NCBI GenBank assembly: GCA_032622095.1
Contig: CP136063.1
Location: 72,393,980 to 72,457,979 of the forward strand
Source of the DNA: Siphonodentalium dalli
Taxonomy: Eukaryota > Mollusca > Scaphopoda > Gadilida > Siphonodentaliidae
Reading direction: 5' to 3'
Length of the DNA: 64,000 nucleotides
This document shows positions 13,901 through 44,489 of the stretch, piece by piece. The stretch's first letter is position 1; every line of letters starts with the position of its first letter. The notes under the pieces were generated by a model. The model worked only from the letters and a program-made list of their open reading frames with translations, was not told the DNA's origin and ran no database searches. The translations under genes were made by a program, and so were the position numbers.

Positions 13901-16900
13901 ACAAAAGAATATTTCTGGGTATATTTGAATGGCGATATATCGAGCCTTCTACAGACTCTTGGAGAGACACCGCTTCCGATGAGCTCTAACGTTATTTTGT
14001 CTAGCTGGTGTTCGGGAATAATCCGAGACAAATCGACATTATGCACCGATATTGGACCAGTAACAGACATAGGACGAATTTATGGGCTGGTAAGAATGAG
14101 TTGGCACTATCTAATTATTTTATGGTATAGAAAACTTACCACTGGTATAGCGTTATGGTGTCAGACCGGACAGTGAATCATTAAATTAATTCCGTTTATT
14201 CAGTATTGCTGAATCGGTATTGTGATCCATCTCGAAAGTCAAGCAGCTACAAAGTTGGGTGTTGCTCATTTTGTGCATTAGAAATTATTGCCAGTTTAAA
14301 AAAAACGTCAGATGCCATCGAGGAGTAAGTTGTTGCACCTAATATCAGTGGGTAATAATCTGTAGAATATTCCTCCATCATCGACCAATAATTAGAACAG
14401 AATTAGAAGTAGGAACTATATTACCCAAGAACAAAACTATTATAACTAATACAATTAACGAATTGGTGAACTATATGGCATTCAAAAAATATTTACACTC
14501 CTACAAGCATTCGATCGCGCTGAGGAACCTGCATGGAGGACGCTGGTTGGTTGGAATCACGTCATGTGCCGTCGCGCGCAGACCCCAACTCGTTTTCATA
14601 TTGTATGGACGCAACTTGTTCTGCATGCTGGGAATCCAGAATATTGTTCGAAACGGACGCTGCATGGATGCGCCTTTAATTTGCAAGTTGTTTGTAATTA
14701 TAAGAAATTGATGTTCATTGTGTTCCATGATTGGGGTGTGTGTGCAAGCTGGTCCATCCATACTCCATGGCACGCAACAAAATTAATATCCATTCCTTAA
14801 TAATGTGATGTACTGTATATTGAACCTTACGATCAAGACACTCTGATTGCCAACCAACTTGAAGTCTCACCGTTACGGATAGCATATGTATAGAGCGTCA
14901 GATGTTAATGGACCGAGAATTAACTCATGCATAATAGTTGAAGGGGTCACTATCATCACGCGACGTGCGATTGAGTACCCAGCTTAATATTTCGTACAGT
15001 CGAGTACATCGCTTAACGAATCAGAGCGGTTGAATACCTCGCTTTATGAAATCTCACAGCTAAACCATATTCACGATATCGTCCGCTAAATTGCTTTTAT
15101 TTTCGTAGAATTCCAATGTCCAAAACAAAATGAAAATGCAAGCTGGTGTCTAAAGACGCACCCTATCCTTACAATTATTTTTTACCCTGTGCCAATGCAT
15201 TCTCTTATATATGCGAGTCGACCATAGGTCGCCTCGCATATAAAAGAGAATGCATTGGCCTAACAATTTTTTATCATTTTTTTTAAATAAATGTTTCTTA
15301 CAATTTTTAGGACATAAAATAAAAAACATCCATTACCCTGCAGGGAGCCCCACACATATATAGAAGCATATAGAAGAGTGTCGTCTGCTCATGTTTGTCT
15401 GGGGCTCTGTATGGGTGAAATTATAAAATTGTTAAAGAATACAAGAAAAAATTATTAAAATTGTAAAAAAATTGTTAGGCCAATGCATTCTCTTATATAT
15501 GCGAGGCGACCTATGGTCGACTCGCATATATAAGAGAATGCATTGGCACAGGGTAAAAAAATCCCGACTTACGACTGGATTTGTAAAAATTCCATTTGTA
15601 TCATGTTATCCCAGTTCGAGATTTCGTAAAGCGAGGTATACTCAACCGCACATATTCGTTAAGCGAGGTACTTGATCGCACGAAATATTAAACTGGGTAT
15701 ACTCAGCCGCACGTCGCGTGATGATAATGACCGCTTCAGATGCAGTGCAGTGGCTCCACTTAACGCTCAGACGTCGATCGTTGCGAAGTGGAAGCGTTTT
15801 TGTAAAATTGGATGAATCTTTTGTGGGGGGAATATATAAAACCTATAATCATTCTGCATAATCACACGGCACAATAGTTTTAACGATTCTGCGACCAATT
15901 TCACGATTATGCGACTTGACAACCACGGTGCTATACGGCAGTTTAACGATTCTGCGACCTTATTATACGTGATATGTTATGACAAACTTAGATAAAGGGG
16001 CTTTTTACTGAATTGGGACGACAAAAGTGGGCTTCGTCTTGTTTTCATTGTATAGAGTAGACTTTGCCGGTCCACCAGGTTGACTCAAGGATCTATACAT
16101 AAAATGATTCACAATCGGCTCGGTCAAATCGGGACCATCAGACCAAACTGTAAACCGATCGCAAAAAGTCATTTCTTGGGCTACAGAGGGACATTAACAG
16201 TGCGAAAATTAACATCCAACGTAAGCTTTGATAAGCATAAATGGAGCATTTGTCATATTCGTATACCTCAGTTGACGCAATATTCGATTAAACTCGACAC
16301 AGAAATGCAGTAACAATGTCAACTATTTGGCAACGCCCGGGTTCGACCATGGCAACGACGATTGTGCGACTCGTTGAACGGTAATTTTCATTTGTATACG
16401 ACGTATCTGACACTGATCGGGCAGCTTAGGTGCCGTTTACACATAGCCGGTGAGCGATCTAAGCGGCGAACCCGTTCACCGGCGAAGGTTACTGCAGATT
16501 GTCCTTTAGTTCCTGTATCAATAATGTTAGGCACCATGTCTTCGCTGTAATCAACATATCATGGATTCAATGCAGTACTGTGTATACACTGATCCCCACA
16601 TGTGATACCATAGAGTCGAAGTCACATAAGAGATGTCCACATGTCACTAACCGAGCGTTCTGATATTTGAACATGACCAAATGTTTTTTTCTATATATTA
16701 GCTATATTAGATCGTTGTTATTACTGGGAATTTGTTGAAAATAACAGTACCCCTTTAACGTAAGCATTTTAACAATTAAATCTATAACCGATTTTCGACA
16801 GAAGGATATTCTATAATGATTTGACCGAGCCGATTGTGACTCATTCTATGTATATATCTCATCCCCGTATGTATTCTGTGAGTCAACCTGTGGACCTGCT

Positions 16901-19900: not shown

Positions 19901-22900
19901 GAATGCCGCCCGTGCCTTTAACCAGAACGTTTACAGAATACATCTTCGACTCAAATTACTTAGTTTTATATGTATAGTATCGATATTATAGATCATTGTC
20001 ATCACCGGGAATTTATTAAAAATGGCGTACAGTACCCATTTAAACCCCTGTATATACTAAATACTCACTGCTGAGTAGTTCCATTTGGAAATGTTTGGAT
20101 AATAAGTTCAATAAACGACAGGTCATTTGTTGAACCTATTATCTGAGCATTTCCCTCCAATGTACATGAATCATAGAGATCATCTGAGTTGAAAGACATG
20201 CAAATAATTCACTGATTGGCTTGATGCATTTATGACAGATATTTTCCACACATTGATAGTTACATTAATGTTTGAGACAGTTGCTCGCTCTTTTTACATG
20301 CAGACCGTTACCAGGCATTAGTTACATCAGGACAAGTTTACTTATATATGCGAACTTAGGTCATTGTACAGGATACACACAATTCCAAAACTTCTGATCA
20401 TTTCCCGATTAGTCTCAACCAGCCCATTATCTAGCATTATGCCTTAACACTTTTGTTAGTCTACTGGAGCAACCTCTGTTATAATAAATGGCAAACAGTC
20501 ACCATGCCAGACTTGGATAGTGTAGGTGTTGTGAGAGTAACAGATCATATGAGTTGATAGACATGCAAATATTTCACTGATTGGCTTGATGTACTGATGA
20601 ACAGTGTGATGACAGTTATATTCTAGCCATTGGTAGTCACATTAATGTTTGAGACAGTTGCTCGCTCTTTTTCCATGCACACAATGATCTTGGCTTTAGT
20701 TACATCAAGACAAGTTTATTTATTTCAGTTTTCATTTCTCGAATCTACTTTCCGAAGGGTGTCGGGAAGATTTTTTTTCACCCCACCGCCCCATATGCAA
20801 CATGCCATATATAGCTCAATGTCATCTCTACTAAGGCTCATATGAGGTCCCAGTAACATAAATATGGTGTTTTTGCAGTTACAAATTCTTATAATATGTT
20901 TTAAACTGTTAGAAATGTCATATAATGACACAAATGGTCTTTAGTGAAAAATATGCACGAGGGTGTAAAAAACGCGTTTTGCCCCTCAAGCCACCCACCC
21001 ACACCGGCATACCTTCCTGCAATTTTTTTTACTACCCCCCTGTTTCTATGGACCTTTTTTATGCCTCTATCATTTGCCCCTACTTGAATTGCAGTCAAGT
21101 GGGCCCGGGCCGCGCTATTGTCAAGGGAGAGGGCTTCAAATAAGTCTATGGCTTGTTGCCTACTCCCATTTTCTTATTAATTTGTACCTATTGTAATTAT
21201 TTATCTGAATGTCCATAGAGGGAAAAATAAATACTGAATATCATTATCACCTCTTTCAGATGCCGAGGGATGACGCACCACACTTCAGTTCAGCGAATTA
21301 TCTCACCGGATCCAGTCACAAACTTTACAGTGTATTTGGTGGACTCAATCCCCACCAGATCCTCAAAGAAATCGGACAGTGGAAGAATAGAACAGGACTC
21401 AAGCTTACTGAAAACGAACTGTTCAAGAATATCCTGAGGGATTTTGGGGATATGAGTCTATTGATAACGTCATCAGAGGTATGTGTTTTTATCCTGAGGG
21501 ATTTTGGGGGTTATCAGTCTATTGATAACGTCATCAGAGGTATGTGTTTTTATCCTGAGGGATTTTGGGGGTTATCAGTCTATTGATAACGTCATCAGAG
21601 GTATGTGTTTGTATCCTGAGGGATTTTGGGGGTTATCAGTCTATTGATAACGTCAGCAGAGGTATGTGTTTGTATTGGTCACTAAGAATAATGTACGTGT
21701 CACGTTCACGAACACGATAGCTTCACTTAAAGCCATACACTGTTACTAGAATGTAGAAATAAAAAATGACGAAGAGAAAACTCATTCCACGGAGCTGGCA
21801 ACTGCGTTCAACGCGTTTCAGTTGTGGACCAATAATAATGGACATTAATTACCAGATAATAGAAGTAATGGATGTTAATGTTATAAACAAGTGAAGGTGA
21901 ATCACGTGTATTCTGAGAATTATAGACCGCTTAGTTTGGCTTATGTATTATGTAATGACCTTTGCAATCCAGATGATTACTCAAAATCTTACCTCAGACA
22001 CAGTCCCGCGGTGATCTGAGTTCCATCATGTACGGAAGATGAGCATTGTATATATACAGTGATTCACAACGCCACCATCGATGACAAGTAATTGACAACA
22101 TTGAAAACTGACAAGCATTACGGAAATCAAAAGACGGGCGAATGGAGTGGGATGCATGATATACACTTTACAAATTTATTTCTGGAAGTTAAAGCATTCG
22201 CGGTGATAAAATTTGACACATAAGAGATGTTTTCATTGGAATCGATTGGTGCTATTTTCCAATTTTCACCACTTCTGAGATGCATCGCAGGCTGCGGAAA
22301 TAAATTAACAAATTAACACTTCCACGACTGGAGCTTCCTGAAATTTTGCGAACACCCTATTCCAATGCCAATAGGGAGCCTCGCATATATAAGAGAATGC
22401 ATTGGCCTAACATTATTTACCTTGACTTGGTAAAGCGCATTCTCTTATATATGGGAGACTCATATATATAAGAGAATGCACTGGCAAATGATATTTCATG
22501 CTGCACCAGCGCAGCTCCCGTTATGAAAGGGTTAACAATTTTCAATCACATCATTGTAGGCTGATCCCTGGGTGAGAACGCCATCTAAACACAACGAAAC
22601 ACGATACACAGGCTTGTGTATTGACATGCTAGATGAGTTGGCGACACGGCTAAAATTTAAGTAAGTGATACTGTGAACGGCTTTGATTTGGCCGGCAACA
22701 ATTTTCGTGGTTTATCATCAAAAGGCTTTTTCGTCGGGGCATGAATTCGTGGATCAGATATCACATCAACGGGTCCAACACAATAGCAGCTTCGTGACAT
22801 ATCTGAGCGGTCACTATAGAGAAATTAGATCCCAAGGTATTAAGGCGCTGAAATCACATCACGCAATCACACACCATATAGCTGTCACTAACCCGCGGCC

Positions 22901-25900: not shown

Positions 25901-28900
25901 CATGCGTTCGTCCGATCATAACTGCTACAATATTAGTCACATTCCCCGTGAAATTTGTCATGTAGTTGGTATTTGAGAACGCATAGATCACTGTTGAATT
26001 TGATCACAGTCCGATGAATTCTGGTATATAGTTACGTCCCCTTTTCGATGGTCAATGTTTTTAATGGAGTTAAATCATGCCCCTTCGAACTTAGAGTTCA
26101 TTTTCTTGTGTTAGCCGTGTGATAACTTGAGCAATATTCAACATAAGTGCATGACATGGTTCATATTTTAAAAGACGGAGATCAACTTCAAACGTGGTCA
26201 AGATATATCGATTTTTGACAGAAAGTTATGCCGCCTTTTCGTCTTAGAATTTACAAATTTGTGATTGTCCAAATGATAACACGGGCAATATTCAGCCGAA
26301 TTGCATCATGATACAATGGTGGTATGTTGTTCGTCCCGAAAAGACGCTGGCCGCGTCCCAAATTGGGCACGATCTGATGGTTTTTTACGACGTTATATAT
26401 GTGCCTTTTTCGACTTAGAAATCACAATGAACAATATTCAACACAAGTTCATAATTGGTATGTGGTTCAAGTTTGAGACGACACAGGTCAAGTTTGAAGA
26501 TGGTCACGGTCCGGTGATTTTCAGCAGTCAATATCAAGTGTAAATAAATGTTTGTTCGAAGATTTTTGCCAATATTATATATGTTTTGGTTTCCAAACAA
26601 AGCCAACTCAACAAACAAGCCACATTTTCGGAAGAACGTGGGGTCAGTAACCTTTTATTTGCACGAACATGAGCACCATCGCTTTTAGTTTTTATTGGTG
26701 TTATCAAAGAATATTAGATAATGACAATTCAGTAATGTTGTAGAGCGGATATTTGCTACATTGCAGCACACGAGAAAAGCTGATATGCAAAGACTGAGGG
26801 GTGAATTTGTTCTGTGAATAACGCAATCACATGTTTTGTTTTCCTCACTATCGACACTATGCCACACAAGGTAATGATTGTCCCCTTCTTGGAATAAAGA
26901 TGGATTCAAACCCGCAATTCAATGCACTAAGTCAGCAGTTGGTATGGCTGTATCATTGCTGCCATACAATGGCTGCCAATGTTTGTGGAGCCAGGCATGT
27001 CCATGCAGCAAATCATCTCCGAAGTTAAAATATTTGCTGTCAGTTATGGTATATATCTATCTAAATATAAGTATTATGTGCACATATGTGTTATCAATAT
27101 AGAATTAATGGCGACATTAACCTGACCATTCTAGTGAGATGTAACATATTACTGACCATATGATAGACAATGGCGGATAAAAAAAGAATATTATATAGTA
27201 TTCTTTCTGACCACTCTGACATCAATAACAATATACTATGTATTAATGGCAATCTACTATATGTATTGTCTTACTCTGTATTCTGTCTTGTTGTTGTGTG
27301 AGTTTCAATATTTTTACTCATATCTGGTTTTTACCATTGCAGTTACACAATTGTCGAGCCGCCAGATAATCTATGGGGGTCACAGAACGATGATGGTTCT
27401 TGGAACGGCATGGTCGGGATGGTCTTGAGAGGGGTAAGAGGAATATCACTTACATTACATGTAGAATGTAGTACTATGTATTGAGGTGTATTGACTGTTA
27501 ATGCAACTATGCAACGAGATGGTACACTATTAGATGGTAATTATTAAAGGCATGTACGGATGGCCTTTGATGTGGGTATGCTGTTGAAATAGCCACACCA
27601 GTTAAAATTGCCATTAAGAATATTAAAATATAGATATATTTTTTTCTTATAACAATCATAAATATCGCGTAAATAGTATGTTATTGTCAAGTTCATATGC
27701 TGGGTTATGTAAACAAAAGCCAGGTTCTGTAACGTTTTTGGCTTTTGTTTACACAACAAAGCTTTGAACTTGACAATAACATACTATTATATCCCAACAT
27801 TACGAGTTGAAAAACACAAGAAAAAACTAGAGCTTTATGACTTTTTAACAAATCAAATTCTTTAAAAGAAGCTGTGAAATGCATATATTTACTGCTTTGG
27901 CTGATACGCTTCATAAACGTACACGACAGTATTGCGCGTTCTGGGGCTGGCGAGGGAAAATGTAGTCTCCCAATATGCCTCTTTGTTTTTGTGTCTGTTT
28001 TCGTTAGTGCAACGAAGTTGGACAATAATGTAACTTTAATGAACTAAGTTCATTTTGCATTGTCTGGTGTTAGTGTCATTCGCCGCTTTTCGAAATAGTA
28101 TTAATCCACCTGAATCAATATAAAGACGCGCGGTCATCTTGTTGGTGCGATGCCAAGTGATTTGTAACTAGCGATATATAAGGAAATTTGTAATGGTTTC
28201 GTGTGATATTATTACAAATGTATTCGTGTGTCACCTCTCTATATTTCATGGCAGTTGAGTTCACATTATCGTTCCAGGAAGTAGCATTGGGTGCAGGGCC
28301 TTTCACAATAACGTCAGACAGAGATAGGGTGATAGACTACACCAAACCCTTCATGGACATCGGCGAAGGAATCCTGACTCTACGGCCTCAAGAACACCGC
28401 TTTGAACGAATGTTCAAGATGTTCAAACCTTTCGTATGGACCACCTGGCTGTATATAGGGATTTCCATTATTGTGTTCGGATGTGCTCTATTCATTAACA
28501 ACCGACTTTCTCCATTCGTTAGCCCAGACTCTAAGACTGACGGCTCAATACAGAATGAACTGAAGTTTTTTGATAATCTTTGGCTTGTATTTGGAACCTA
28601 TATGGAACAGGGTAAGTATTTGTAATCAAAACAAGGAGACAGAACAAGTGTACCACATATAGATACCTATAATTATGTTCGTAAAATATTTTATTTTTTA
28701 AAGTTGTTTTAATCATGATTTTATTCTGAGTAACAAATACAGTTTAAAACAAATATTTAAGTCATTAATTTTGAACCGCTGAGAAAAAGAGGATTTAATT
28801 TGACCAATGTTTTTTTTTTAATTTGGCCAAAAAACATTTGGCCAAAGTTTTTTCTAATTTGTCCGATAAAAGTCTCATTTGGCCAAACTTTTGGCCACAA

Positions 28901-31900
28901 GATTTTTCGGTCCAGCGCGAACACAGCATAGAGTATCCCCCGCAAAGGAGGCTTTTTATGGAGATTTATTAATTTACTGAGGTGGCTTAATTCCAAAGAT
29001 GTCTCGAGTCATCATTCACACCCGCTCTCGGGTAAGACGTTCATTACCTTTCCGATTGAATCATGGTGTTTCTGAGTTCAAACTGTTTATAGATTTCGTC
29101 ACGGCTTCTGATATTAACCCTTTACCCAACAGAACGGCCCTGTGCCAATGCATTCTCTTATATATGCGAGTCGACCGTATATGTCGCCTCGCATATATAA
29201 GAGAATGCATTGGCTTAACATATTAAAAATGATAAAATTGTCAAAGAATGTAGAAAAATATTATAAAAATTGTTAAAAAATGTAAGAAAGAATTATAAAA
29301 TTGTTAAAGAATGTAGGCCAATGCATTCTCTTATATATGCGAGGCGACCTATGGTCGACTCGCATATATAAGAGAATGCATTTGCACAGGGCATAACTGT
29401 AACCATCACAATGTGGTCAATGAACCGGTTCCAATGATGCATATTTGTATGGTGTTATTGAGACAGACCAAAGATATTTTAGGCTGTTGAAGCTTTATTT
29501 GGGCGTTTTTGGCCATTTTGTAGGGTAAAGGGTTAACCCAGTTTTACAGAATGGATTTGAACTCATCTGAACAGTTTACATATAAAACTGTATATGTTTT
29601 GAGACAATGCACTTGTATTGGAATTGGTGGGTTTAGAAACCCTGCCCGTGTCGGTGAGCCCGCCTCAAAGTCCGACGTCAATACCACACGGACATCGAAG
29701 CGACCCCTCATTACGTGCAATGTCTCAAATGATGTACGTATGTATCTAATATGGCCGCTGGGAACGATACGCGCGCCGTTTGGAATAGTTTTAAAGATGG
29801 ATTTTCTCTTTAAATAACAAATTTGAAATAGTTGCGTGGGTATAAAATAATAAATATGAACTGAAGACCCCTTTCCGGAAAGAGTTCTATCAATTAATAT
29901 TGATTTTATTTCGAATATTTTATTATGAAATGAGATGATTAATTGGGACACTTTATTTGTCTATTGTTAGAACAGACCATTCAGGCGATACCATATTGCT
30001 ATAGAGAACATTAGGCTATTACTATAGCTACGTTCCGAACTTCAAATGTCCCAGATTTATTGATTGTATTGTTTTGTTTCGTAGTTATACGCGATAATGA
30101 GTCTAATTAACGTTTATTTGTGACAAAATTTCACAATAAAATTTCTGGCCTCTGTTAACAGTAAACACGATTGTTCGTTAGCTAAACAACCACACCTTTT
30201 TAGACCAGAAAATATTCGAAATAAAATCAATGTTAATCGATAGAAGCATTCATGGACAGGAGTCTTCGATTCATATCTAATATTTTATATCCCGGTAACT
30301 ATATAATACTTGTTTACAAAGAGATAATCCACCTTTAATTCATCCTACACGACATATACGACATAATTATATTTTATAACTTACAGGTGGTGAGGCACGA
30401 CCGACAACTGTTTCTGGTCGGTTGTTGTTGGCTTCCTGGTGGTTATTTACGGTCATAATGATATCCACATACACGGCAAACTTGGCTGCGTTTCTGGTGG
30501 TATATGTACCACATAAACCCATTAACAGTGTCAAGGAATTGGCAAACCAGAACGATATTAAACCAATCGCGGAATATGCCACGAACACCTACACGTTCAT
30601 CAAGGTAAGTGCACATGTTTAGGTTCTGTTGAACGGCACACATGTTCATGCAGGCACATTCGGTGTGTATATTACGAGTTATAAACCTCATTATATGTCG
30701 TTAGCTACAACCGGCATTTAGGTTCCTATATATGCTGTCCGAGTGTGCCGTATACGTTTCGGCACCTGGTTTTGCAATCAAGTAATTCGCCCTGTCACTA
30801 ACTCGTGGCTATATTTGATCCACCAGGTTCGGTTCCGTGGTTTTAGTGCAACGGGTCAAAGTTTTGTAGTAGCATTCCATATATGGAAGTCATGAATAAT
30901 TCAAAAGCTCCATATATGGAAATGCTACTTCAAAACTTTGGCCAGTAGCAATAAAACCACGGAACCGGGGCTGGAAGAATCGCTGACACCACGGAACGGA
31001 GCTGGGTGAATACATTACAGCTGCGACTCAGTGACCTCGCTTATTAAGTGAAGATATCTCCCTGGATGCCACCGTCTCCGGATTTTAAATACAACATGCC
31101 AATATATCCGCCAAAATCTATACTCAACACTACACCATGCGTGACCGTAAGTAGTAAGAACGTCCGATAAGACACACGTATTGGATCATCATATTAACTC
31201 CTATTTATATAACCATATTAACTCCTATTTATATAACCATATTAACTCCTATTTATATAGCCATTCATTTATTTCATGAGAAATTATTATCAATACTCGT
31301 CAAAATTAGAGAAGAATGAGATTGAAACACATATAGGTCGGAGGGTAAGTAAACACATATAGGTCGGAGGGTAAGTAAACACATATAGGTCGGAGGGTAA
31401 GTAAACACATATAGGTCGGAGGGTAAGTAAACACATATAGGTCGGAGGGTAAGTAAACACATATAGGTCGGAGGGTAAGTAAACACATATAGGTCGGAGG
31501 GTAAGTAAACACATATAGGTCGGAGGGTAAGTTACTTTTGAGTGCATGAATTTCATTATCTGACCCACCCCTCCCCTGCACAATTATCTAATTTACCGTT
31601 TACATAAATATCTGTCAATAATTGTTATGTTGTATACTGTATGTTATATAAGTCTAAAAAACGAACAGTTTAGTTTATTACATATCAAATATATAAAGGA
31701 TCGACAACGAGTCCCCTGTTTATAACGGAATGAACAAAAGGAGTCCAGTACATTAGGTGTGAACCTAACCTTTGGCGAGTTTTGTAATTCCGCTATAAAC
31801 TGGGTATGAGTTGTAGATTATATTTATTGCATGATCCAAAACCTCGACAAAACATACTTAAATCAACAAATGGGACGTAAAACTAACATCAGCGTGGCAT

Positions 31901-34900
31901 ATGGCGTATATTTAATGAAATAACTTTTCAAGCTTTTCATTCATTAGATTTTGTTGGAAAAATATTGGAAGACATAGTATTTTGAGACGTATGGAATATA
32001 AATATACGACAAACCGGAAGTCAAAGGTCAGCTGACAGTATTTCCTGTTATGCAATGAACGTTTCATATCACAATTTATAGAATGGGTTTATTGAAAGAA
32101 TAAGGGTATATCATGTAATAAATTTTATACTAAATAACCGTATTTTAGGTGAGCAATATAATACAATAGCTGATGTGCATGACTTCGTCCGGGCTATTTA
32201 GGGATTTCTTTGTGATCGCCTCCGTCTGGGCAGAATGTACAGCTTCTCGACAAACTATTGTTTGATCGGTCCAGAAACATGCCTATATGAGCGCGGTCAA
32301 GTTCAAGGTTACGGTCGCGCGTGAAATTGGACCCACCCATATTGTTCCCGGGATCAAAGTAGGCATACATACCATATTTGAGTCGGATCGGTGGAGCAGT
32401 TTTCGAGTCTATAGGACACATACATACAAACATACAGAAGTTCCAAAATATACTATGCTATAACATGAGCTAAGTCTCAATTTGCAAATCTCAACTGTTT
32501 AGTGGATATATTTGCCGATATTCCCCCTATCCCAAAATTGCCGAATTAAACGTTGAACAAAGTGCCGTTGAAACATTTACATCCAAAGTAGAAATGTATA
32601 CACAGTTTGTTCTAAAGCTGAAATTTACAAAATAGATGTTATACCAACAATTATAGTGGTATATATATAATTCCAGTACCTACCTCGACTAACCTATTTT
32701 TTTTCCGCTGCAGGAATCATCTGATGAAGATTTTAAAAAAATGTGGAGCGTAATGAGGGACGGTCCGCGCATTGTCGGAATAGAAGAAGGGATAGAACAT
32801 GTCTATTCAGGGAAATATGCATTCATAGCAAGCAGTGCGGGCGTGGATAGAATTGCATCAGATCCAAATCACTGCGGTAACTTCACTGTGGCAGAGGAAT
32901 CATTCAACACAGCCGGGTTGGGGTTCATTCTACCTGAAGATGGCCCGTTCAAAGAACTTTTTGACAAAAAGTAAATTGAACCTACACAAGCTGATGTCAA
33001 ATCGTTGTGAAAGCCACAAGTGGCGGTTAGAAGCCTGGAATTATGTTCGGTTTTACTGCATGCTGGTCCGGTTCGGGTGAAAATAGGTCGATAAATACAT
33101 GAAGTATATAGAGGATATGAAATGAGTGTTTCTCTCATATGATATTTATGAAACGAGTCTAAGAATTTTCAGTTTTCTCGAGCCTCCGGCGAAAGAAAAC
33201 TGAAAATTCGTGACGAGTTTCATAAATATCATATGAGAGAAACACGAATTACATATTCTATTTATCATATGATACCTATAAATTGATTATGATGTCCAAA
33301 ACGCACACAAATCACTAAATAGCTATATGACATCGGCAGCAAAAGGTTAATGTGACGTCATTTCATTGCACCGGAAGCCCAATTACACCTGGTGAACTAG
33401 CAGAAATAATATGCACGCGAAGATATAGTGCGCTATTCTGTTCTCAGTTTGTGACATTATATCGTATGTTTATTAGATAAATACGAATTACATATTCTAT
33501 TTATCGTATAACATGCAATGTCCAAAACTATATATTTCAAGATTATAATTGCGAGAATTTCGGAATCGCGTTGATTGACGCGCACGAATTTGACCTGCAT
33601 TTAGTTAGAGATACGGCTCAGTCGCGGCTGCCATTCAGCCAATCAAAACACACTTTTTGTCAACAAACCAATCAAATTATCGGAAGGTGATATGAACTAG
33701 TAGTTCATATGAATTTGATTTATGACATTCTTTCCAACGTAAATAATGATTGAGTCATATGATAAATAGAGGATCTCACATGAGTTTCTATTTTATACGG
33801 AATTTATCAACCGAGTTCACTAAATTCGATTTGAGCCGAGGTTTACCGAGGCTCAAATAGAATTTAGAGGACGAGGTTGATAAATTACGTATAAAATAGG
33901 ACGAGTGTGAGATACCTTTTATCACATGATCAAATAAAACCGATGCAACGCGAAATATTCATCGAAAACAACATTTATAAACTACAGCGATCGCAAGTTA
34001 TTTGAAGAACGCCGTGACGTCATCGCACGCGCTGATATTAAACGTGTCTATTACCGATACTTACGTGCGCTCGCGCAACAGTGTGGCGATCAGACAGATT
34101 CGTAGGTTGGTGTCACCCTACTCCGTTTCACTCCATGACGTCACCAAAAACGACGTAAAACCTCGTGGCGTTCTGACATTTTTACTGTGCCGCGTTTTTG
34201 CTATGTTTATTTTATGTGTTGTTTTCGATTATTTGTTTGTCGCCGATATCGCCATTTGTCGGGATTCCCTGTTTCTATATTTAAAACTGGCATGCTCGTA
34301 GTGAGCCTCGATTTCGATTTTTTCTCCCAGGTCAAAATACGTCAGAGTTATGACAAAAATAGATCGACCTACATTTTCTCCATCAGAACTCTACACCAAA
34401 GAGTCTATTGACTCCTTCGGGACCTACATAGACTCCTTCATTTGGGTATTTTTACGTATAATTAGGAAGTTTTATCATTTTTGGTTCGTGCGAAGACCTC
34501 TTTTTATCGTGCGGGGAAAGAGAGACATTCAAAACGCGATTTCGTAATTCGACGCAATAGGCTGAATAACCTAACCTTCAGCCGAGTTCCGGGTCAAATA
34601 CGACGAATGACGTAACACAAAACAAAACGCATTTGTTGACACAAACACCGTTTGAAGAGTTAATTATTACATAAAATGATCGTTATTGATTAATTATTGA
34701 TTAATTATTGATATTTATTGTTGCATATTGGCTGCTATCAATATTTACACAAATAGTATTAATTATTTCTTATAATTGCTCCTTTGGTCAACTTTGACTA
34801 TCGGAAAATGAAAATGAAAATATGCCGCTGAAAAAAATGTAATCGATATTAAAGTCTCATTCTTTCGGCAACATGGAATTGGTTTTAATTACTTAAATGA

Positions 34901-37417
34901 TTAATATAGTAATTTGCATTTATCTGTGATGAAATGAGAAATGGTAATTTTTCTAACATTAAATTAAATAAATTAAGTAAAATACAGTGAAATTATTTTT
35001 TAAATTATTGTTTATTACATTTTTGCGCACGTTGGCATCTCTCTGAGTGCATTCTAGTTATGAAACTGCTTTTATGGCCAAATTATGTGATAAACGTATA
35101 TACGGACTTTATATGCCACCGAAAATACTTCATTGTTAGTGTATTCCTGATATGGTGAAACAAACGATTGTGAGCAAATTCTAAAAACTTTTTACTGAAA
35201 TAAATACACATAAAAATTGTTTTCTTAATATTTTAATGCACAACTGCACGATGAAACCTCACCAATAAATGTAAAAAAGCTTATTATGTTCTCTTTAAAT
35301 GATAACCATGACAAGTTTGGAAAATAATTGAAACAGTAATTGAATTACGTGCTATATATCAAAGTAATTAAGTAAATAATTAATTAAGTAACTAATTACT
35401 TTCAATTACTTGTAATTGAGAATTGAAATGACTCAATTACAAATTACTGTCAATTACTTGAGAAAAAGTAACTAATAACAGCCAATTGCAATTACAAATT
35501 ACTTCATGACTGACTGGTAATCCATCCGAGGAGTACATGGGCATTTTGGGAGAATCTCAGCGGGATATAACAATGAAACAATGAACGATAATGTTCCGTT
35601 TCCATCGCCTAATTTTTCCTGCGTCATGTAGAAGGAGAAATAATTTAGGTCAATAAATACACGGAATACCTATCTATATATTGAAATTCCATCCCTATAT
35701 ATATATAAATTTTCAAACTGGATTCCATTTGTAAATTCTATGGCTGATAAATTTCGCAAAGATTATCGACCTATTTTCATCATCGGAACCGGACCATGTC
35801 TGAGTTTAGTGTGCATGTCATTTGCAGAATGAGGTCCCCAGAGGGTGAATTTAGTGATGCTATCCGGCGGGCTAGCATCACCAAATTCACCCTCTAGCCG
35901 CCTCATCCTACATGGCCTCATCTGCTATGGGAGACATAGAATCAGATTGGTGTTCCCAAATGGTGAATATTGTGATGGACATCCATTGGGACCTCGATTA
36001 TACAATGTGTCGTCTGCCAATTTGGGGATATAGAGAAACTAAACTAAAACAGAAATAGAATCTATGTGAAGAAGTTTCTATAGAAATTTGATAATAAAGA
36101 AACTTTCGATTGAATTAAGATGAGGCCTAAGCAGAATGAGGTCCCCAGTTGGTGAATTTAGTGATGCTAGCCCGCTTTTTATTGTTGCAATTTCAGGAAT
36201 TTTTAATGGCTAACTACTAACGTCCTTTGTTTGTTCATGATACCGAATAATCGGAATCCGATTTAGAAAAGTTCTAGTACTAGAATAGGTATTTCTTTTT
36301 CATTTAAAGTCCTTGTAAATGTATTTCACGTATTTGTCGACTTGTTTTAGTCACCGGAACCGCGCCATATTGTGACAATCGAACATTATAGGAATAATTC
36401 GAGGATCAAATATGCCATGTGGCCTTAAATAGATTATACTACATATTTGCTTGTATGTTTTGTAGCTGTTTCATTATATATGTGATGTTAGATCATGCCA
36501 TGAATTTCTACTCTGGCTAATGGCCCGTAGATATCATATTCCACCAGTACAAAACCTTGGATCTTTTTGAAGTTTTGACTAGGAACTTTATACAGTAGAA
36601 AAAATAACACGGGAAATATATTTCTTAATTATTATCTGTATATACGTTAATAATGTACTTCACTGTAGGTGAATGTCCAGCTCGAAATTGCATGCTTTTC
36701 TGTGAATTTTGTCAGCCATTATAACAAACATTCAATTTATTACCCAGGAGAAATTCCATAATTGTAAGAAACGCAAAGCAAAATCGCTCACAAATTCACT
36801 TAAAACGTGAAATTTTGAGTTTGGACCTTCAATTACAGTGAAGTATATTATTAAGAAACAGATAATAACAAAGAGATATATTTTTTATTTTTTTTCGATT
36901 TTATAAGGTTCCCTGTCAAAACTTCAAAAAGTTCCCTAGGTTGTGTACTGGTGGAATATGATCTCTACGAGCGTTAGCCTAGAGTAGAGATTCATGGCAT
37001 GATCCAATGTGATGTATATACCACTGTTTTATTTTTTCCAGCATAATGTCGATGCAAGAGGCTGGCTTGATTAAACTTTGGTTGAAAAAATGGATGCCTT
37101 CCTCTGAGGGTTGCCTCAAGGCCGAAACAACGAGAGACGCCACTACGTTAGGGATGGACAGTCTAGCCGGACCGTTTCTAATATTCGCTGGAGCAGCCAC
37201 AGTCGCAAGCATTTGTTTGATTCTGGAAATCGCGTTGAAGCGAATCATTAGGACGCCTTGCTCGGCCGACGGCGCTAACATAAATGCCGATGATAATACA
37301 CAACCTGGAACTGATATGACCACAAATATAACATATATGACAATCAGCTTACCAGAACTTGGCACTGACCAAGAAATGAACCCCTCAGTTTTGACGCCAG
37401 AACCTCATGAAAAATAA
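1808..37417 (+). CDS. Ionotropic glutamate receptor gene, 5' end missing, ten exons
   Basis: A ligand-gated cation channel subunit of the plasma membrane. Joined exons: 1808-1989, 13880-14089, 18626-18799 (tentative), 21260-21478, 22560-22660, 27343-27433, 28278-28611, 30387-30604, 32714-32970, 37042-37417, giving about 719 visible residues. Every intron has AG acceptor and GT donor ends and compatible phases (0,0,0,0,2,0,1,0,2). Domain order is amino-terminal domain, S1, M1, pore loop, M3 (STYTANLAAF), S2, M4, short C-tail. The signal peptide and the start of the amino-terminal domain are upstream of the window. The ligand pocket keeps PFTITSDR, whose Arg binds the carboxylate in this family. 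The positions matching GluA2 Tyr450 and Glu705 read Trp and Ser, and the Q/R pore position reads Glu. The class (AMPA/kainate/delta-like or the invertebrate Epsilon group) cannot be decided by eye. Introns are loaded with transposons; a related gene probably starts at 61488. Confidence 0.9.
2094..2663. mobile_element. TTAA-type MITE, family A, copy 1
   Basis: About 570 bp, non-coding. It starts with atacggatggcctt and ends with aaggccatccgggccttTAA, an inverted repeat of ~18 bp. The same ends and inner blocks (ccgccataaacagaaagaa; gtgttttgtgaataata) recur at 17568-18419 and 19410-19921 and partly at 27545-27790. In this copy the left TTAA has decayed to GTAA. It begins about 100 bp inside the intron after the first visible exon. 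Confidence 0.7.
2685..2880. repeat. ACATGA/ACATGTT-rich degenerate repeat
   Basis: Irregularly repeated acatgatgtatcatg and aacatgtta motifs, many of them short palindromes. No unit length is constant, so I call it low-complexity sequence between two MITEs. Confidence 0.45.
2884..3116. mobile_element. Short internally deleted copy of family D
   Basis: The left end matches the left TIR of the element at 15861 (gcacaatcgttttaacgatt, then two more cgattctgcga motifs, then ttgggacgacaaaagtgggc). The right end, ccacgattgtgctgtgtgat, is the inverted terminus of the same family. Only ~233 bp remain, so this looks like a minimal deletion derivative that kept both ends. Confidence 0.6.
3479..4351 (+). 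repeat. Left terminal inverted repeat of the 7.4-kb element
   Basis: Matches the reverse complement of 10042-10900 almost base for base. It contains a direct duplication of a ~43-bp block (gtcacatctaaaaatagaat...) at its outer end and a run of AAAATT-rich sequence. The main difference is ~12-14 extra bases near 4320 (gtatcaattaag). The high arm identity suggests a fairly recent insertion. The open frame at 3537-3761, mirrored in the right arm, is a by-product of this A-rich repeat. Confidence 0.9.
5013..5552. repeat. ATGAGCAA minisatellite, array 1
   Basis: About 540 bp of atgagcaaatgagcaa separated by short spacers (aaaaa, gaaa, taaaa), giving a ~20-22-bp unit. All three - strand frames are open across it (runs of LLICSF and AHFLAH), which is a consequence of the repeat and not a membrane protein. 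Confidence 0.95.
6749..7288. repeat. ATGAGCAA minisatellite, array 2
   Basis: A second copy of the array, 1736 bp downstream of the first. Spacer order is the same unit by unit, so the whole array was duplicated as part of the macro-repeat rather than growing independently. Confidence 0.95.
8564..8939. repeat. 188-bp tandem duplication of the 3' end of the zinc-finger gene
   Basis: 8564-8751 and 8752-8939 are near-identical head-to-tail copies. The copy nearer the gene carries the in-frame C-terminus and stop; the other is a non-functional tail duplicate just downstream of that stop. Confidence 0.9.
8767..9564 (-). pseudogene. C2H2 zinc-finger protein of the long-TIR element, frameshifted
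   Basis: Three consecutive - strand frames together make one protein-like product. Frame 1 (9564-9358): a C2H2 finger, YQCEECLSVY...H-x4-H, then a polyglutamine/HQP stretch. Frame 2 (9371-9096): a second finger, CDLCGIILSTNYNLQRHKQI-KH, then a highly acidic Asp/Glu/Ser tract. Frame 3 (9099-8767): a helical, charged tail with RLIEYQHRLKTSRIHNAIMK and the end VNLTGEDSDND. Both fingers have C-x2-C-x12-H-x4-H spacing. I recall similar finger + acidic + 'IHNAIMKKA' tail proteins in invertebrate mobile elements, but I cannot name the family. The two frame changes (near 9370 and 9098) suggest a dead gene; programmed shifts or sequencing errors are less likely alternatives. It is the only coding signal inside the element. 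Confidence 0.65.
9931..10044. repeat. GGC-repeat and nested hairpins at the inner edge of the right TIR
   Basis: A strikingly GC-rich island in AT-rich DNA: (cgg)n at 9938-9960, a perfect hairpin ggggtccg/cggacccc at 9980-10002, then more ggcggcgg and its complement gccgccgc. The whole is enclosed by the inverted pair cattgcagtattttactg (9961) and cagtaaaatatcgcaatg (10027). Confidence 0.8.
10042..10900 (-). repeat. Right terminal inverted repeat of the 7.4-kb element
   Basis: Reverse complement of the left arm, ending CCCCTATTCTTCT and followed by GATATC. It carries the mirrored duplicated outer block and the mirrored spurious frame at 10618-10842. Confidence 0.9.
10907..11442. other. Intronic, nothing recognised
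   Basis: Unique-looking AT-rich sequence between the long-TIR element and the next inverted-repeat element. No exon with splice ends was seen. Confidence 0.45.
11443..12861. mobile_element. 1.4-kb element with perfect 55-bp inverted termini
   Basis: 11443-11497 (agggtctattctcattgcac ... cgttttttaaggt) is an exact inverted copy of 12807-12861. No transposase frame lies between. A second, smaller inverted pair sits inside (12081 and 12752). This is either a non-autonomous DNA transposon or an inverted duplication. Confidence 0.7.
12081..12752. mobile_element. Inner inverted-repeat element, ~670 bp
   Basis: Left gggggaggggggtctga...cgttcatacacagggt and right cctgtgtatgaatgtgttcg...tcagaccccacccc form imperfect ~45-bp inverted ends. 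It lies wholly inside the element at 11443-12861, so it probably inserted into it. Confidence 0.5.
12909..13353. mobile_element. Two-hairpin MITE, second class, copy 1
   Basis: Outer TIRs cgccatatcaaatccagtcg / cgactggatttgatatggcg. Inside are two near-perfect palindromes of 60-75 bp built from ccaatgcattctcttatata...gcgag and its complement (12957-13023, 13249-13307). The hairpin arms are the same as in the TTAA family at 13483, 29114 and 44110, but the outer ends and centre differ. Confidence 0.8.
13483..13840. mobile_element. piggyBac-like MITE with two palindromes, copy 1
   Basis: 358 bp including flanking TTAA (13483-13486, 13837-13840). Ends are CCCTTTACCCAACA and TGTTGGGTAAAGGG. TTAA targeting and CCC termini are piggyBac hallmarks. 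Two palindromes, each with ~28-bp arms and a short asymmetric loop (tcgaccataggtcg), occupy about half of it. Orientation is opposite to the copies at 29114 and 44110. It ends 39 bp upstream of an iGluR exon. Confidence 0.85.
13880..14089 (+). CDS. iGluR exon: amino-terminal domain, middle
   Basis: Acceptor gtttttcag ends at 13879 and donor gtaagaatg starts at 14090; 70 codons, phase 0 to 0. WLTKEYFWVYLNGDISSL lines up with the 'MTEYYHY.FTTLDL' segment of kainate-type receptors, in register with the end of the previous exon. The later part (CTDIGPVTDIGRIYG) is less conserved. A piggyBac-like MITE ends just upstream, leaving only the pyrimidine tract between. Confidence 0.75.
14100..14940. other. 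Intronic, nothing recognised
   Basis: Several short frames occur on both strands around 14463-14800, but none has splice ends in a compatible phase or a recognisable domain. Confidence 0.4.
14943..15733. mobile_element. TIR element interrupted by a two-hairpin MITE
   Basis: Left 14943-15060 (ggtcactatcatcacgcgac, aagcgaggta-type motifs) and right 15616-15733 are diverged inverted copies of ~118 bp. Each arm has repeated 'ttaagcgaggta' and 'gagtaccc' motifs. The MITE at 15179-15583 lies between the arms and is presumably a later insertion. Confidence 0.6.
15179..15583. mobile_element. Two-hairpin MITE, second class, copy 2
   Basis: Same family as 12909-13353 in the opposite internal orientation. 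It shares the gagccccagacaaacatgag/ctcatgtttgtctggggctc centre, the two palindromes (15188-15258, 15478-15546) and the right end cgacttacgactggattt. The left outer end is truncated. Confidence 0.75.
15861..17112. mobile_element. Family D element, ~1.25 kb with ~270-bp TIRs
   Basis: 15861-16140 is mirrored at 16810-17112. The outermost ~90 bp of each arm carries three copies of an acgattctgcga motif, the spacing expected of transposase-binding subterminal repeats. A fragment of family B (atattagatcgtt...cagtacccctttaa) sits inside at 16693-16758. No transposase frame was found. Confidence 0.8.
17568..18419. mobile_element. TTAA-type MITE, family A, copy 2
   Basis: 852 bp bounded by TTAA at 17568-17571 and 18416-18419, with inverted ends agatacgggtggtcttcg and cgaggccatccgtct. 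It is the longest copy of the family in the window; the short frame at 17433-17657 runs into it by chance. Confidence 0.75.
18626..18799 (+). CDS. Candidate iGluR exon: amino-terminal domain, late part
   Basis: Found by reading, not as an ATG-started frame. A strong pyrimidine tract with acceptor (tcctccatttgtttatag, ending 18625) is followed by 58 open codons beginning RDDVRKS and including DTDDAMIHDV. That segment resembles the 'TTDAALMYDAV' stretch expected exactly here between the flanking exons. The exon is phase 0 at both ends, as required. The donor (gtcggt at 18800) is weak, and the peptide after DAMIHDV is low in similarity. If it is wrong, another exon of phase 0-0 is likely missing between 14090 and 21259, since the exons on either side would otherwise leave the domain short. 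Confidence 0.45.
18932..20043. mobile_element. TTAA-type MITE, family B, interrupted by family A
   Basis: Ends TTAAGGGGATACTGTAC (18932) and GTACAGTACCCATTTAA (to 20043) match the uninterrupted copy at 41478-42128. Inner blocks shared with that copy include gactcaaattac/g and tgtcaccgggaatttatt. It is split by a family A element at 19410-19921. Confidence 0.8.
19410..19921. mobile_element. TTAA-type MITE, family A, copy 3, nested in family B
   Basis: 512 bp including both TTAA. The left junction is gataacata-TTAA-agatacgg and the right junction cgtgcct-TTAA-ccagaacg. The empty paralogous site at about 41992-42011 reads gatagcctg-TTAA-ccggaacg, which shows directly that family A targets and duplicates TTAA. 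Confidence 0.85.
20169..20725 (+). repeat. ~180-bp direct repeat, two copies ~370 bp apart
   Basis: 20169-20345 and 20539-20725 share blocks such as gacatgcaaat, ttcactgattggcttgatg, acattaatgtttgagacagt and tgctcgctcttttt. Nothing else is recognised between 20044 and 21200. Confidence 0.75.
21260..21478 (+). CDS. iGluR exon: end of amino-terminal domain and linker to S1
   Basis: Acceptor cctctttcag ends at 21259; the first donor gtatgtgt starts at 21479; 73 codons, phase 0 to 0. NYLTGSSHKLYSVFGGL corresponds to the '(W)GLTGRI.F' stretch. KEIGQWKNRTGLKLTE matches 'EKIGTW....GLNMTE', and MSLLITSSE matches 'SLIVTT(I)LEE', the first strand of the ligand-binding domain. The last ~48 bases of the exon, together with the donor, are repeated three more times downstream. 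Confidence 0.85.
21431..21662 (+). repeat. Four tandem copies of an exon end with its 5' splice site
   Basis: A 60-61-bp unit (atcctgagggattttgggg ... catcagag|gtatgtgttt) starts at 21431, 21491, 21552 and 21613. Each copy ends in a potential donor (GT at 21479, 21540, 21601 and 21662). Because 61 is not a multiple of three, use of a downstream donor would shift the frame. Confidence 0.9.
22313..22535. mobile_element. TTAA-type hairpin MITE, diverged
   Basis: TTAA at 22313-22316 and 22532-22535 with inverted ends TTAAcacttccacgactgga and ctcccgttatgaaagggTTAA. It contains relaxed versions of the cattctcttatata hairpins. The right end lies 24 bp from the first base of the following iGluR exon. 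A fragment with the same left end occurs at 51670. Confidence 0.65.
22560..22660 (+). CDS. iGluR exon: ligand-binding S1, first part
   Basis: A short exon without its own ATG. The acceptor ...catcattgtag ends at 22559 and the donor gtaagtgat starts at 22661; 33 codons plus AA (phase 0 to 2). ADPWVRTPSK follows directly on SLLITSSE. RYTGLCIDMLDELATRLKF is the canonical 'RYEGYCIDLL.ELA..L.F' segment. The AA joins the T of the next exon to make Asn, giving FNYTIVEPPD across the junction. The fit of sequence and phase on both sides makes this secure. Confidence 0.92.
22885..23130. mobile_element. Foldback MITE, family E, copy 1
   Basis: Left ccaggccccgttccgtgg and right ccacggaacggagctag form inverted halves, with a central ccatatatgg palindrome. 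A second copy lies at 30793-31042. The open frames at 22683-23081 overlap it by chance. Confidence 0.75.
23950..24200 (+). repeat. Diverged ~180-bp tandem repeat, two units
   Basis: tacaaacattttgaattttaa...tgtcatatttgatg...atggtgacggaccagaa is followed by a diverged second copy with tatggtgatagaccagaa. The rest of 23131-25020 shows an 11-base G run (23412-23422) and no gene. Confidence 0.55.
25021..25670. repeat. Hairpins and GGGCAACAGTTC direct repeats
   Basis: A short hairpin gatttcgtggtt/aaccacgaaatc lies at 25035-25062. Then actatcgaactgttgccc is inverted as gggcaacagttcgatagt (25288-25338), followed by at least four more caacagtt(c) motifs to 25650. It looks like the end of a MITE whose other end I did not find. 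Confidence 0.5.
25970..26540 (+). repeat. Diverged ~200-bp tandem repeats, about three units
   Basis: gataacttgagcaatattcaacataag..., gataacacgggcaatattcagccgaa... and acaatgaacaatattcaacacaag... recur with interleaved 'cgacttagaa' and 'gtccggtgattt' blocks. No gene is seen here. Confidence 0.6.
27343..27433 (+). CDS. iGluR exon: ligand-binding S1, middle
   Basis: Acceptor ttttaccattgcag ends at 27342 and donor gtaagagg starts at 27434; one base plus 30 codons (phase 2 to 0). YTIVEPPDNLWGSQNDDG, then SWNGMVGMVLRG, matches 'Y.I.....(D)GKYG.....G.WNGMVGEL'. The residue matching the ligand-stacking Tyr of GluA2 (Tyr450, in DGKYG) is Trp here (DNLWG). Confidence 0.92.
27545..27790. mobile_element. 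TTAA-type MITE, family A, partial foldback copy
   Basis: Starts TTAAaggcatgtacggatgg like the other family A copies and keeps ttattgtcaagttc...ttatgtaaacaaaagcc. That part is then followed by its own inverted copy (27733-27790), replacing the normal right half. It begins 112 bp after an iGluR exon. Confidence 0.65.
28278..28611 (+). CDS. iGluR exon: end of S1, M1 and pore loop
   Basis: The acceptor ttatcgttccag ends at 28277, chosen because it gives phase 0 and joins VLRG to EVALGAGPFTIT. Donor gtaagtatt starts at 28612; 111 codons plus one base. PFTITSDRDRVIDYTKPFM contains the carboxylate-binding Arg. M1 is about PFVWTTWLYIGISIIVFGC. The pore loop is LWLVFGTYMEQ, with the intron splitting the next Gly codon. 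The open frame continues 5' of the acceptor as far as 28203 but does not fit the family. Confidence 0.95.
28790..28925. mobile_element. Fragment of the hAT-like family F
   Basis: Repeated tttggccaaa blocks end in ggtccagcgcgaacacag, the right terminus of the family whose intact copy is at 54823-55314. Confidence 0.55.
29114..29536. mobile_element. piggyBac-like MITE with two palindromes, copy 2
   Basis: 423 bp between TTAA at 29114-29117 and 29533-29536. Ends are CCCTTTACCCAACAG and a mutated TTGTAGGGTAAAGGG. Palindromes lie at about 29142-29214 and 29319-29392, and the block gcttcaacagcctaaaatat is present in inverted form near the right end. It sits in an iGluR intron. Confidence 0.85.
30387..30604 (+). 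CDS. iGluR exon: post-pore, M3 gate and start of S2
   Basis: Acceptor ataacttacag ends at 30386 and donor gtaagtgc starts at 30605; two bases plus 72 codons (phase 1 to 0). GGEARPTTVSGRLLLASWW leads into M3, FTVIMISTYTANLAAFLVV, which carries the family gate motif YTANLAAF. PINSVKELANQNDI is the start of S2 (family: PI.S.EDLA.Q..I). Confidence 0.95.
30793..31042. mobile_element. Foldback MITE, family E, copy 2
   Basis: Same layout as 22885-23130: ccaggttcggttccgtgg on the left, ccacggaacggagctgg on the right, and a ccatatatgg centre. It lies in the next intron but one. Confidence 0.75.
31191..31262 (+). repeat. Three copies of a 24-bp unit
   Basis: atattaactcctatttatat plus aacc repeated three times; the last copy carries tagcc. 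Confidence 0.9.
31326..31532 (+). repeat. 26-bp minisatellite, eight copies
   Basis: acacatataggtcggagggt plus aagtaa repeated eight times with essentially no variation. All - strand frames are open across it and give a repeated YPPTYMCLLTLRPICV-type peptide, which I do not regard as coding. Confidence 0.95.
31540..32700. other. Intronic, nothing recognised
   Basis: No repeat family or splice-bounded frame was seen between the minisatellite and the next exon. Confidence 0.4.
32714..32970 (+). CDS. iGluR exon: ligand-binding S2
   Basis: Acceptor ccgctgcag ends at 32713 and donor gtaaattg starts at 32971; 85 codons plus two bases (phase 0 to 2). DFKKMWSVM matches 'VFDKMWTYM'. YSGKYAFIASSAGVD matches 'SKGKYAYLLEST', so the acidic residue that contacts the ligand amine in GluA2 (Glu705) is Ser here. 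NFTVAEESFNTAGLGFILPE matches the conserved '...GYGIA.P.GS' stretch. The open frame reads through the donor to an immediate stop, as expected of an intron. Confidence 0.95.
33126..33246. repeat. Foldback, ~55-bp arms
   Basis: gtgtttctctcatatgatat...aaaattttcagttttc-type left arm and its inverted copy gaaaactgaaaattc...atatgagagaaacac, around a centre of ctcgagcctccggcg. Confidence 0.85.
33755..33930. repeat. Foldback, ~80-bp arms
   Basis: gtttctattttatacggaat...aaattcgatttgagcc is mirrored by ggctcaaatagaattt...acgtataaaataggacg, with a centre near 33845. Confidence 0.8.
35341..35515. repeat. AATTAC-rich low-complexity tract
   Basis: Dense alternation of aattac/gtaatt motifs, each able to pair with its neighbours. 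Confidence 0.75.
35825..36175. repeat. Palindrome with a third, separated arm copy
   Basis: gagggtgaatttagtgatgc and its inverted copy gcatcaccaaattcaccctc form a hairpin at 35837-35897. The left arm (gcagaatgaggtccccag...) recurs in the same orientation at 36131-36175. Confidence 0.8.
36477..37020. mobile_element. Long-TIR MITE abutting the last iGluR exon
   Basis: About 200-bp inverted arms (36477-36690 and 36815-37020): gatcatgccatgaatttcta...catattccaccagtac...tttgaagttttgac on the left and its complement on the right. The right end is ~21 bp from the exon, so only the pyrimidine tract and AG of the acceptor lie between. Confidence 0.8.
37042..37417 (+). CDS. iGluR last exon: end of S2, M4, C-tail and stop
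   Basis: Acceptor ttttattttttccag ends at 37041; one base completes an Asn codon, then 124 residues and TAA at 37415-37417. NIMSMQEAGLIKLWLKKW matches 'AIL.LQE.G.L..L..KW', and a Cys follows (SSEGC), as in the conserved S2 disulphide region. M4 is about LAGPFLIFAGAATVASICLI. The tail of ~55 residues is Thr/Pro-rich and ends TPEPHEK, without a clear PDZ-ligand motif. Confidence 0.95.
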
Positions 37418-44109: not shown

Positions 44110-44485
44110 TTAACCCTTTACCCAACAGAACGGCCCTGTGCCAATGCATTCTCTTATATATGCGATTCGACCATAGGTCGCCTCGCATATATAAGAGAAT
44201 GCATTGGCTTAACACATATTAAAAATGATAAAATATTCAAAGAATGTAGAAAAATATTATAATTTGTTTTAGGCCAATGCATTCTCTTATATATGCGAGG
44301 CGACCTATGGTCGACTCGCATATATAAGAGAATGCATTGGCACAGGGCATAACTGTAACCATCACAATGAACCGGTTCCAATGATATCCATATTTGTATG
44401 GTGTTATTGAGACAGACCGAAGATATTTTAGGCTGTTGAAGCTTTATTTGGGCGTTTTTGGCCGCTTTGTTGGGTAAAGGGTTAA
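44110..44485. mobile_element. piggyBac-like MITE with two palindromes, copy 3
   Basis: 376 bp between TTAA at 44110-44113 and 44482-44485. Ends are CCCTTTACCCAACAG and CTTTGTTGGGTAAAGGG. Two palindromes (44140-44214, 44272-44340) and the aagctttatttgggcgtttt block match copy 2 in the same orientation. Confidence 0.9.
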
Positions 44486-44489
44486 CCTG

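Follow-up and report, generated by a model that had tools for sequence, protein, structure and literature searches.

A seemingly intact, strongly diverged ionotropic glutamate receptor gene with an altered ligand pocket in the scaphopod Siphonodentalium dalli

Functional work on the ionotropic glutamate receptor (iGluR) family has centred on vertebrate receptors. The 64,000-nucleotide stretch of Siphonodentalium dalli DNA analysed here, hereafter the window, raises the question of whether a receptor with a changed ligand pocket is encoded by an intact gene, and what such a pocket may hold. A sequence-only reading of the window had placed a glutamate receptor with an altered pocket at 27343-32970. 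The gene portion that we detected is longer: it runs on the plus strand from 22560 to the stop codon at 37415-37417 in six exons. The earlier span covers four of these, and misses 22560-22660 and 37042-37417.

Exon limits were set from reading frames and splice sites, and the codon coordinates of the pocket and pore residues were counted by hand. The first exon (22560-22660) contains the start of S1 (ADPWVRTPSKHNETRYTGLCIDMLDELATRLKF), and is preceded by a TAG acceptor and followed by GTAAGT. It is the weakest-supported exon: tblastn with GluA2, GluK3, GluK5, and GluD1 matched 22602-22661 at E 0.28 to 0.012, and its frame scored 23 bits for Pfam Lig_chan-Glu_bd, under the cut-off. S1 continues in the second exon (27343-27433), which contains DNLWG and has a Trp at the Tyr450 position (codon 27374-27376). 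The third exon (28278-28611) encodes the remaining S1 with TITSDR, M1, the M1-M2 loop, and the pore loop; it includes Pro478, Phe479, Thr480, Arg485 (28320-28322), and a Glu at the Q/R/N site (28605-28607). The fourth exon (30387-30604) encodes the end of the pore loop (Glu590), M3 with TYTANLAAF, and the start of S2 with Thr653-Asn654-Thr655. S2 continues in the fifth exon (32714-32970) with YAFIASS, which supplies Ala704-Ser705 (32828-32833; Ser codon 32831-32833), followed by Gly708 and Leu732; the in-frame TAA past this exon lies beyond the splice donor. The sixth exon (37042-37417), 4 kb downstream, encodes the end of S2, M4, the C-terminal tail, and the stop codon TAA. The letters quoted in the sequence-only reading (DNLWG, TITSDR, and YAFIASS) are thus all present in the second, third, and fifth exons. 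The five introns are all GT-AG with consistent phases, and all ten splice sites are canonical. The joined frame of 458 residues ends in TAA, and has the order S1, M1, pore loop, M3, S2, M4, and C-terminal tail. Poly(A)-like AATAAA signals are found at 37413, 37502, 37544, and 37559.

The joined protein matched Pfam Lig_chan with 121 bits and Lig_chan-Glu_bd with 97 bits, far above chance level. The PDB search identified 367 distinct matching sequences (E <= 0.001), with a kainate receptor scoring best at 222 bits; the best 60 of the 367 matches were kainate, delta, and AMPA receptors, and NMDA chains were absent among these 60. When seven reference receptors were compared with the window by tblastn (E <= 1), every match fell within the six exons, but not each reference matched each exon. 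The joined protein itself recovered the six exons at E <= 2e-14 and nothing further under E 2.0; tblastn found no second S2 exon in the 64-kb window, nor any substitute that would supply the acid at 705. A profile search was not independent, because its alignment included the window protein. If stops occurred as often as they do across the window, 458 codons would stay open with a probability roughly estimated as ~1e-12, a figure that is too favourable because the exon borders were picked to preserve the frame. There was no Rfam match at gathering scores, and one IMG/VR scan found no relative.

A pseudogene was also considered and rejected, as no stops, frameshifts, or bad splice sites occur across the six exons. 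Doubt about the S2 exon in particular, raised in the sequence-only reading, was not borne out: this exon is in frame between open exons and has good splice sites, so that a pseudogene is unlikely. The wider explanation of a pseudogene, collapsed paralogues, or an assembly artefact is very improbable. The window contains 99% identical duplications (4683-6702 / 6419-8438), so an assembly error is possible, and the 5' exons were not found in the window searches; against this stand the 458 open codons, the ten canonical splice sites, the five in-phase introns, and the presence of poly(A)-like signals past the stop codon. The gene looks like an intact channel half of an animal iGluR.

The search for amino-terminal-domain exons used a Pfam scan of the three plus-strand frames at positions 1-22700, with stops read as X. 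Apart from the S1 exon, with its score of 23 bits under the cut-off, the scan of this region recovered a single row, SMIM43, at chance level (E 1). Two candidates for an exon directly before S1 came from a regular-expression search, and both were unconvincing. Both searches would miss divergent short exons, and the amino-terminal-domain exons may sit outside the window. On the minus strand, and on the plus strand past the gene, Pfam was applied to five single ORFs. A short minus-strand ORF at 9099-9380 has a weak C2H2 zinc-finger match (E 0.0015, under the cut-off), with an acidic stretch after it; for the ORF at 8770-9120, which overlaps it, Pfam gave no match at E <= 5. Reverse transcriptase pieces lie on the minus strand at 58005-59686 in two ORFs (weak Pfam RVT_1 matches, E 0.0098 and 0.00049, under the cut-off), and are probably a decayed non-LTR element; adjoining minus-strand ORFs extend to about 60900.

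The window also contains several repeats. A repeat family of ~360-445 bp is found at 12909-13353, 13483-13840, 15178-15583, 29114-29538, and 44110-44487, with copies 74-92% alike. Several copies are self-complementary, with ends like GCCAATGCATTCTCTTATATATGCGAG, and one lies in the intron between the third and fourth receptor exons. This family resembles a foldback or MITE-type element. The intron between the fourth and fifth exons contains a 26-bp unit in eight perfect copies (31325-31532), and a 546-bp stretch at 36475-37020, ~75% self-complementary, ends ~20 bp upstream of the last exon. The tandem duplication at 4683-6702 / 6419-8438 is ~2 kb long and 99.4% identical, and includes a minisatellite with a 20-bp period; it is a recent duplication or an assembly artefact. 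Inverted copies of ~850 bp (3471-4319 / 10058-10908) are 99.2% identical with near-identical ORFs, and 8564-8939 is a perfect tandem duplication of 188 bp.

Full-length alignment showed that the protein has the superfamily layout, with S1 and S2 around an M1-P-M3 pore, followed by M4. It shares 30-33% identity with five AMPA/kainate/delta references, 29% with GluN1, and 23% with GluN2A. In an eight-row tree, built without Epsilon, Phi, group II AKDF, or ionotropic receptor (IR) sequences, the two NMDA rows separate at 100/100 and the window protein pairs with GluD1 with a support of 83/80; the window protein forms the longest branch, and a tree with it beside the NMDA rows was not rejected (p 0.166). 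The protein is strongly diverged and appears to be broadly AMPA/kainate/delta-like (AKDF-like). With respect to the AKDF pore pattern, the Gln usual at 586 is replaced by Glu, and the acid four residues on is present as Glu590. The NMDA hallmark Asn at the Q/R/N site is absent, with Glu586 instead. At the Cys-Cys position of GluN1 and GluN2A, which we take to be loop 1, the window protein has Arg-Tyr, and the first exon has no Cys before that point; this comparison starts at the first exon, and residues upstream of it lie outside the comparison. The absent loop-1 cysteines would argue against NMDA and ctenophore Epsilon receptors. In GluA2 and all three kainate references the M1-M2 loop is longer than in the window protein; GluD1 has one of about equal length. 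Epsilon receptors are described with an insertion in this loop (PMC6307864), and the short loop may speak mildly against Epsilon, a class known here by description only. When S1 and S2 were searched separately, ctenophore Epsilon structures were absent among the best 60 matches listed.

Among known systems, the kainate receptors GluK1, GluK3, and GluK5 (PDB 7lvt, 7vm2, and 7ks0) can be aligned over the entire S1-M4 architecture, and give the top score of 222 bits. At 31-33% identity, the window protein differs from them in having Trp450, Thr653, Asn654, Ala704, Ser705, and Leu732, and a Glu where they have Gln at the Q/R/N site. GluD1 follows with 217 bits; it has a similar QGGE and SWWLFT pore-M3 stretch and is nearest in the best tree, but it has Asp705 and Gln at the Q/R/N site, and shares 32% identity. 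Likened by description, Trichoplax AKDF1 and some of the placozoan GluE1-alpha receptors are reported to lack an acidic 705 as well; the placozoan AKDF receptors described there have Gln at the Q/R/N site, whereas the window protein has Glu (PMC12226733). In the amphioxus Phi receptors, also likened by description, changes of ligand-anchoring residues are said to be common, and none of the Phi subunits covered by that earlier survey has Gln at 586 (PMC6307864). A non-Gln residue at 586 would be compatible with Phi.

The ligand pocket was compared in a MAFFT alignment of the window protein with GluA2, GluN1, GluN2A, GluK1, GluK3, GluK5, and GluD1, using GluA2 mature numbering. The pocket residues are Trp450, Pro478, Phe479, Thr480, Arg485, Thr653, Asn654, Thr655, Ala704, Ser705, Gly708, and Leu732. 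Position 450 is Tyr, Phe, or His in all seven references, and Trp in the window protein; position 705 is Glu or Asp in all seven, and Ser in the window protein. Pro478, Thr480, Arg485, and Thr655 are retained. The altered 450 and 705 and the kept carboxylate-binding Arg of the sequence-only reading are therefore confirmed against AMPA, kainate, delta, and NMDA references. Misalignment at 705 was ruled out, as phmmer alignments with five receptors (GluK1, GluK2, GluK3, GluK5, and GluD1) also put Ser opposite the acid, in agreement with MAFFT; the acidic residue that might have overturned the reading appeared in no alignment. Of the two residues of a standard amino-acid-gated iGluR site, Arg485 is present and the acid at 705 is absent. 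Judged from these alignments, the carboxylate side of the pocket is retained and the amine side is lost. The two S2 cysteines aligned with those of GluA2 are kept.

Further pocket changes, at 653, 654, 704, 708, and 732, had been missed earlier, as had the Glu at the Q/R/N site. Compared with GluA2, the residues at 704, 705, 708, and 732 are smaller, and those at 450, 653, and 654 are larger. Added up over 11 pocket positions, residue volume differs by about -142 cubic angstroms from GluA2, and the difference is also negative against GluK1, GluK5, GluD1, GluN1, and GluN2A; this sum is crude, as it uses approximate volumes, omits position 479, and is calculated from residues without a structure. 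The larger 450, 653, and 654 argue against a roomier pocket. A published rule for glutamate pockets covers 653, 655, and Tyr732 (PMC12226733). Thr653 and Thr655 satisfy this rule; its third part, Tyr732, is Leu here. Residues 485 and 705 are reported as well conserved in 94 of 122 newly grouped receptors, and changes at these positions in the remaining 28 are said to block amino-acid binding (PMC6307864). Further natural losses of the acid at 705 have been described (PMC12226733). The loss is already known natural variation; the receptor thus joins a known kind, and does not represent a new kind of protein.

The pore and the gate were compared with known receptors. The Glu at the Q/R/N site (586) is followed by a second Glu (Glu590) four residues further, and the gate motif TYTANLAAF matches SYTANLAAF in eight of nine letters. 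Gln at the Q/R/N site is described as a tendency in AKDF receptors, and other classes vary (PMC12226733). GluA2 Q607E, a change at the same site, is reported to enlarge kainate-evoked currents and to cause strong inward rectification, with less surface protein when co-expressed with GluA1 (PMC6626132). Simulations with Glu at this site are reported to give a higher conductance, the gain being modest with a partly protonated ring (PMC12637533, preprint). By analogy with these currents and simulations, a Glu at the Q/R/N site is compatible with a working channel. The combination of changes in this receptor is unusual. Searches of the open-access literature, not aimed at the pair, gave no account of a receptor with both Ser705 and Glu586.

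What such a receptor may do can be explained in several ways. The best explanation, held tentatively and a little short of probable, is a diverged iGluR subunit that would hold the carboxylate of its ligand on Arg485 without the standard alpha-amine contact. The subunit would assemble as a tetrameric cation channel; glutamate or glycine would not be held in the standard way; and the ligand would be gripped by its carboxylate, the standard alpha-amine contact being lost. The far side of the pocket (704, 705, 708, and 732) would be lined by residues smaller than in GluA2, and would have neither a charge at 705 nor a hydroxyl at 732. With its acidic pore ring, the channel might conduct cations well and, through polyamines, show strong inward rectification. 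The sequence-only reading had proposed that the receptor either binds something besides glutamate or glycine, or is an orphan or regulatory subunit. This is reasonable and fits the pocket, but the agreement of Thr653 and Thr655 with the glutamate-pocket rule counts against a non-standard ligand, and the sequence does not decide. A clearly less likely but serious alternative is a partner or scaffold that binds no agonist, either as part of the wall of a heteromeric channel or with a structural role like vertebrate delta receptors, its pocket being empty. The lost acid at 705, the changes at 450, 653, 654, 704, 708, and 732, and the pairing with GluD1 in the best tree (83/80) would fit it, as would the report that vertebrate GluD1 and GluD2 pass no ligand-gated current; the same report describes binding of D-serine and glycine by the GluD2 ligand-binding domain (PMC10861852). 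Pro478, Thr480, Arg485, and Thr655 are all retained, however, which hints at a ligand site still under constraint.

A constitutively open channel that is blocked by ligands is an unlikely alternative, drawn by analogy from Trichoplax AKDF1, which naturally lacks Asp705 and has a reported constitutive leak (PMC12226733, citing paper). The gate motif is preserved in eight of nine letters, and the pocket may differ elsewhere from that of AKDF1, which was compared by description; both points weigh against it. A protostome chemosensory IR, as opposed to a synaptic-type receptor, is improbable, and would overlap with the best explanation. IRs often lack ligand-contacting residues, and the window searches brought up no amino-terminal domain; both would agree with an IR. 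Molluscs and annelids both have such receptors, which are said to derive from AKDF-type ones (PMC2924276, PMC12837371). Nevertheless, the gate motif and the membrane segments are near those of classical receptors, and no IR-specific Pfam family matched at E <= 5. It is likewise improbable that the gene represents a conserved lineage which joins the loss of the amine anchor to a glutamate ring at the Q/R/N site; such a cation channel might respond to an acid outside the alpha-amino acids, or stand open until a ligand closes it, and its pore might be adapted to bind divalents or polyamines.

With the diverged subunit as the preferred reading, a pocket with the carboxylate anchor present and the amine anchor absent may provide a natural test of the contacts needed for gating. 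The human variant GluA2 Q607E would have its natural equivalent in the Glu at the Q/R/N site. Rather than a new principle, this receptor offers an additional data point and a useful test case for the family.
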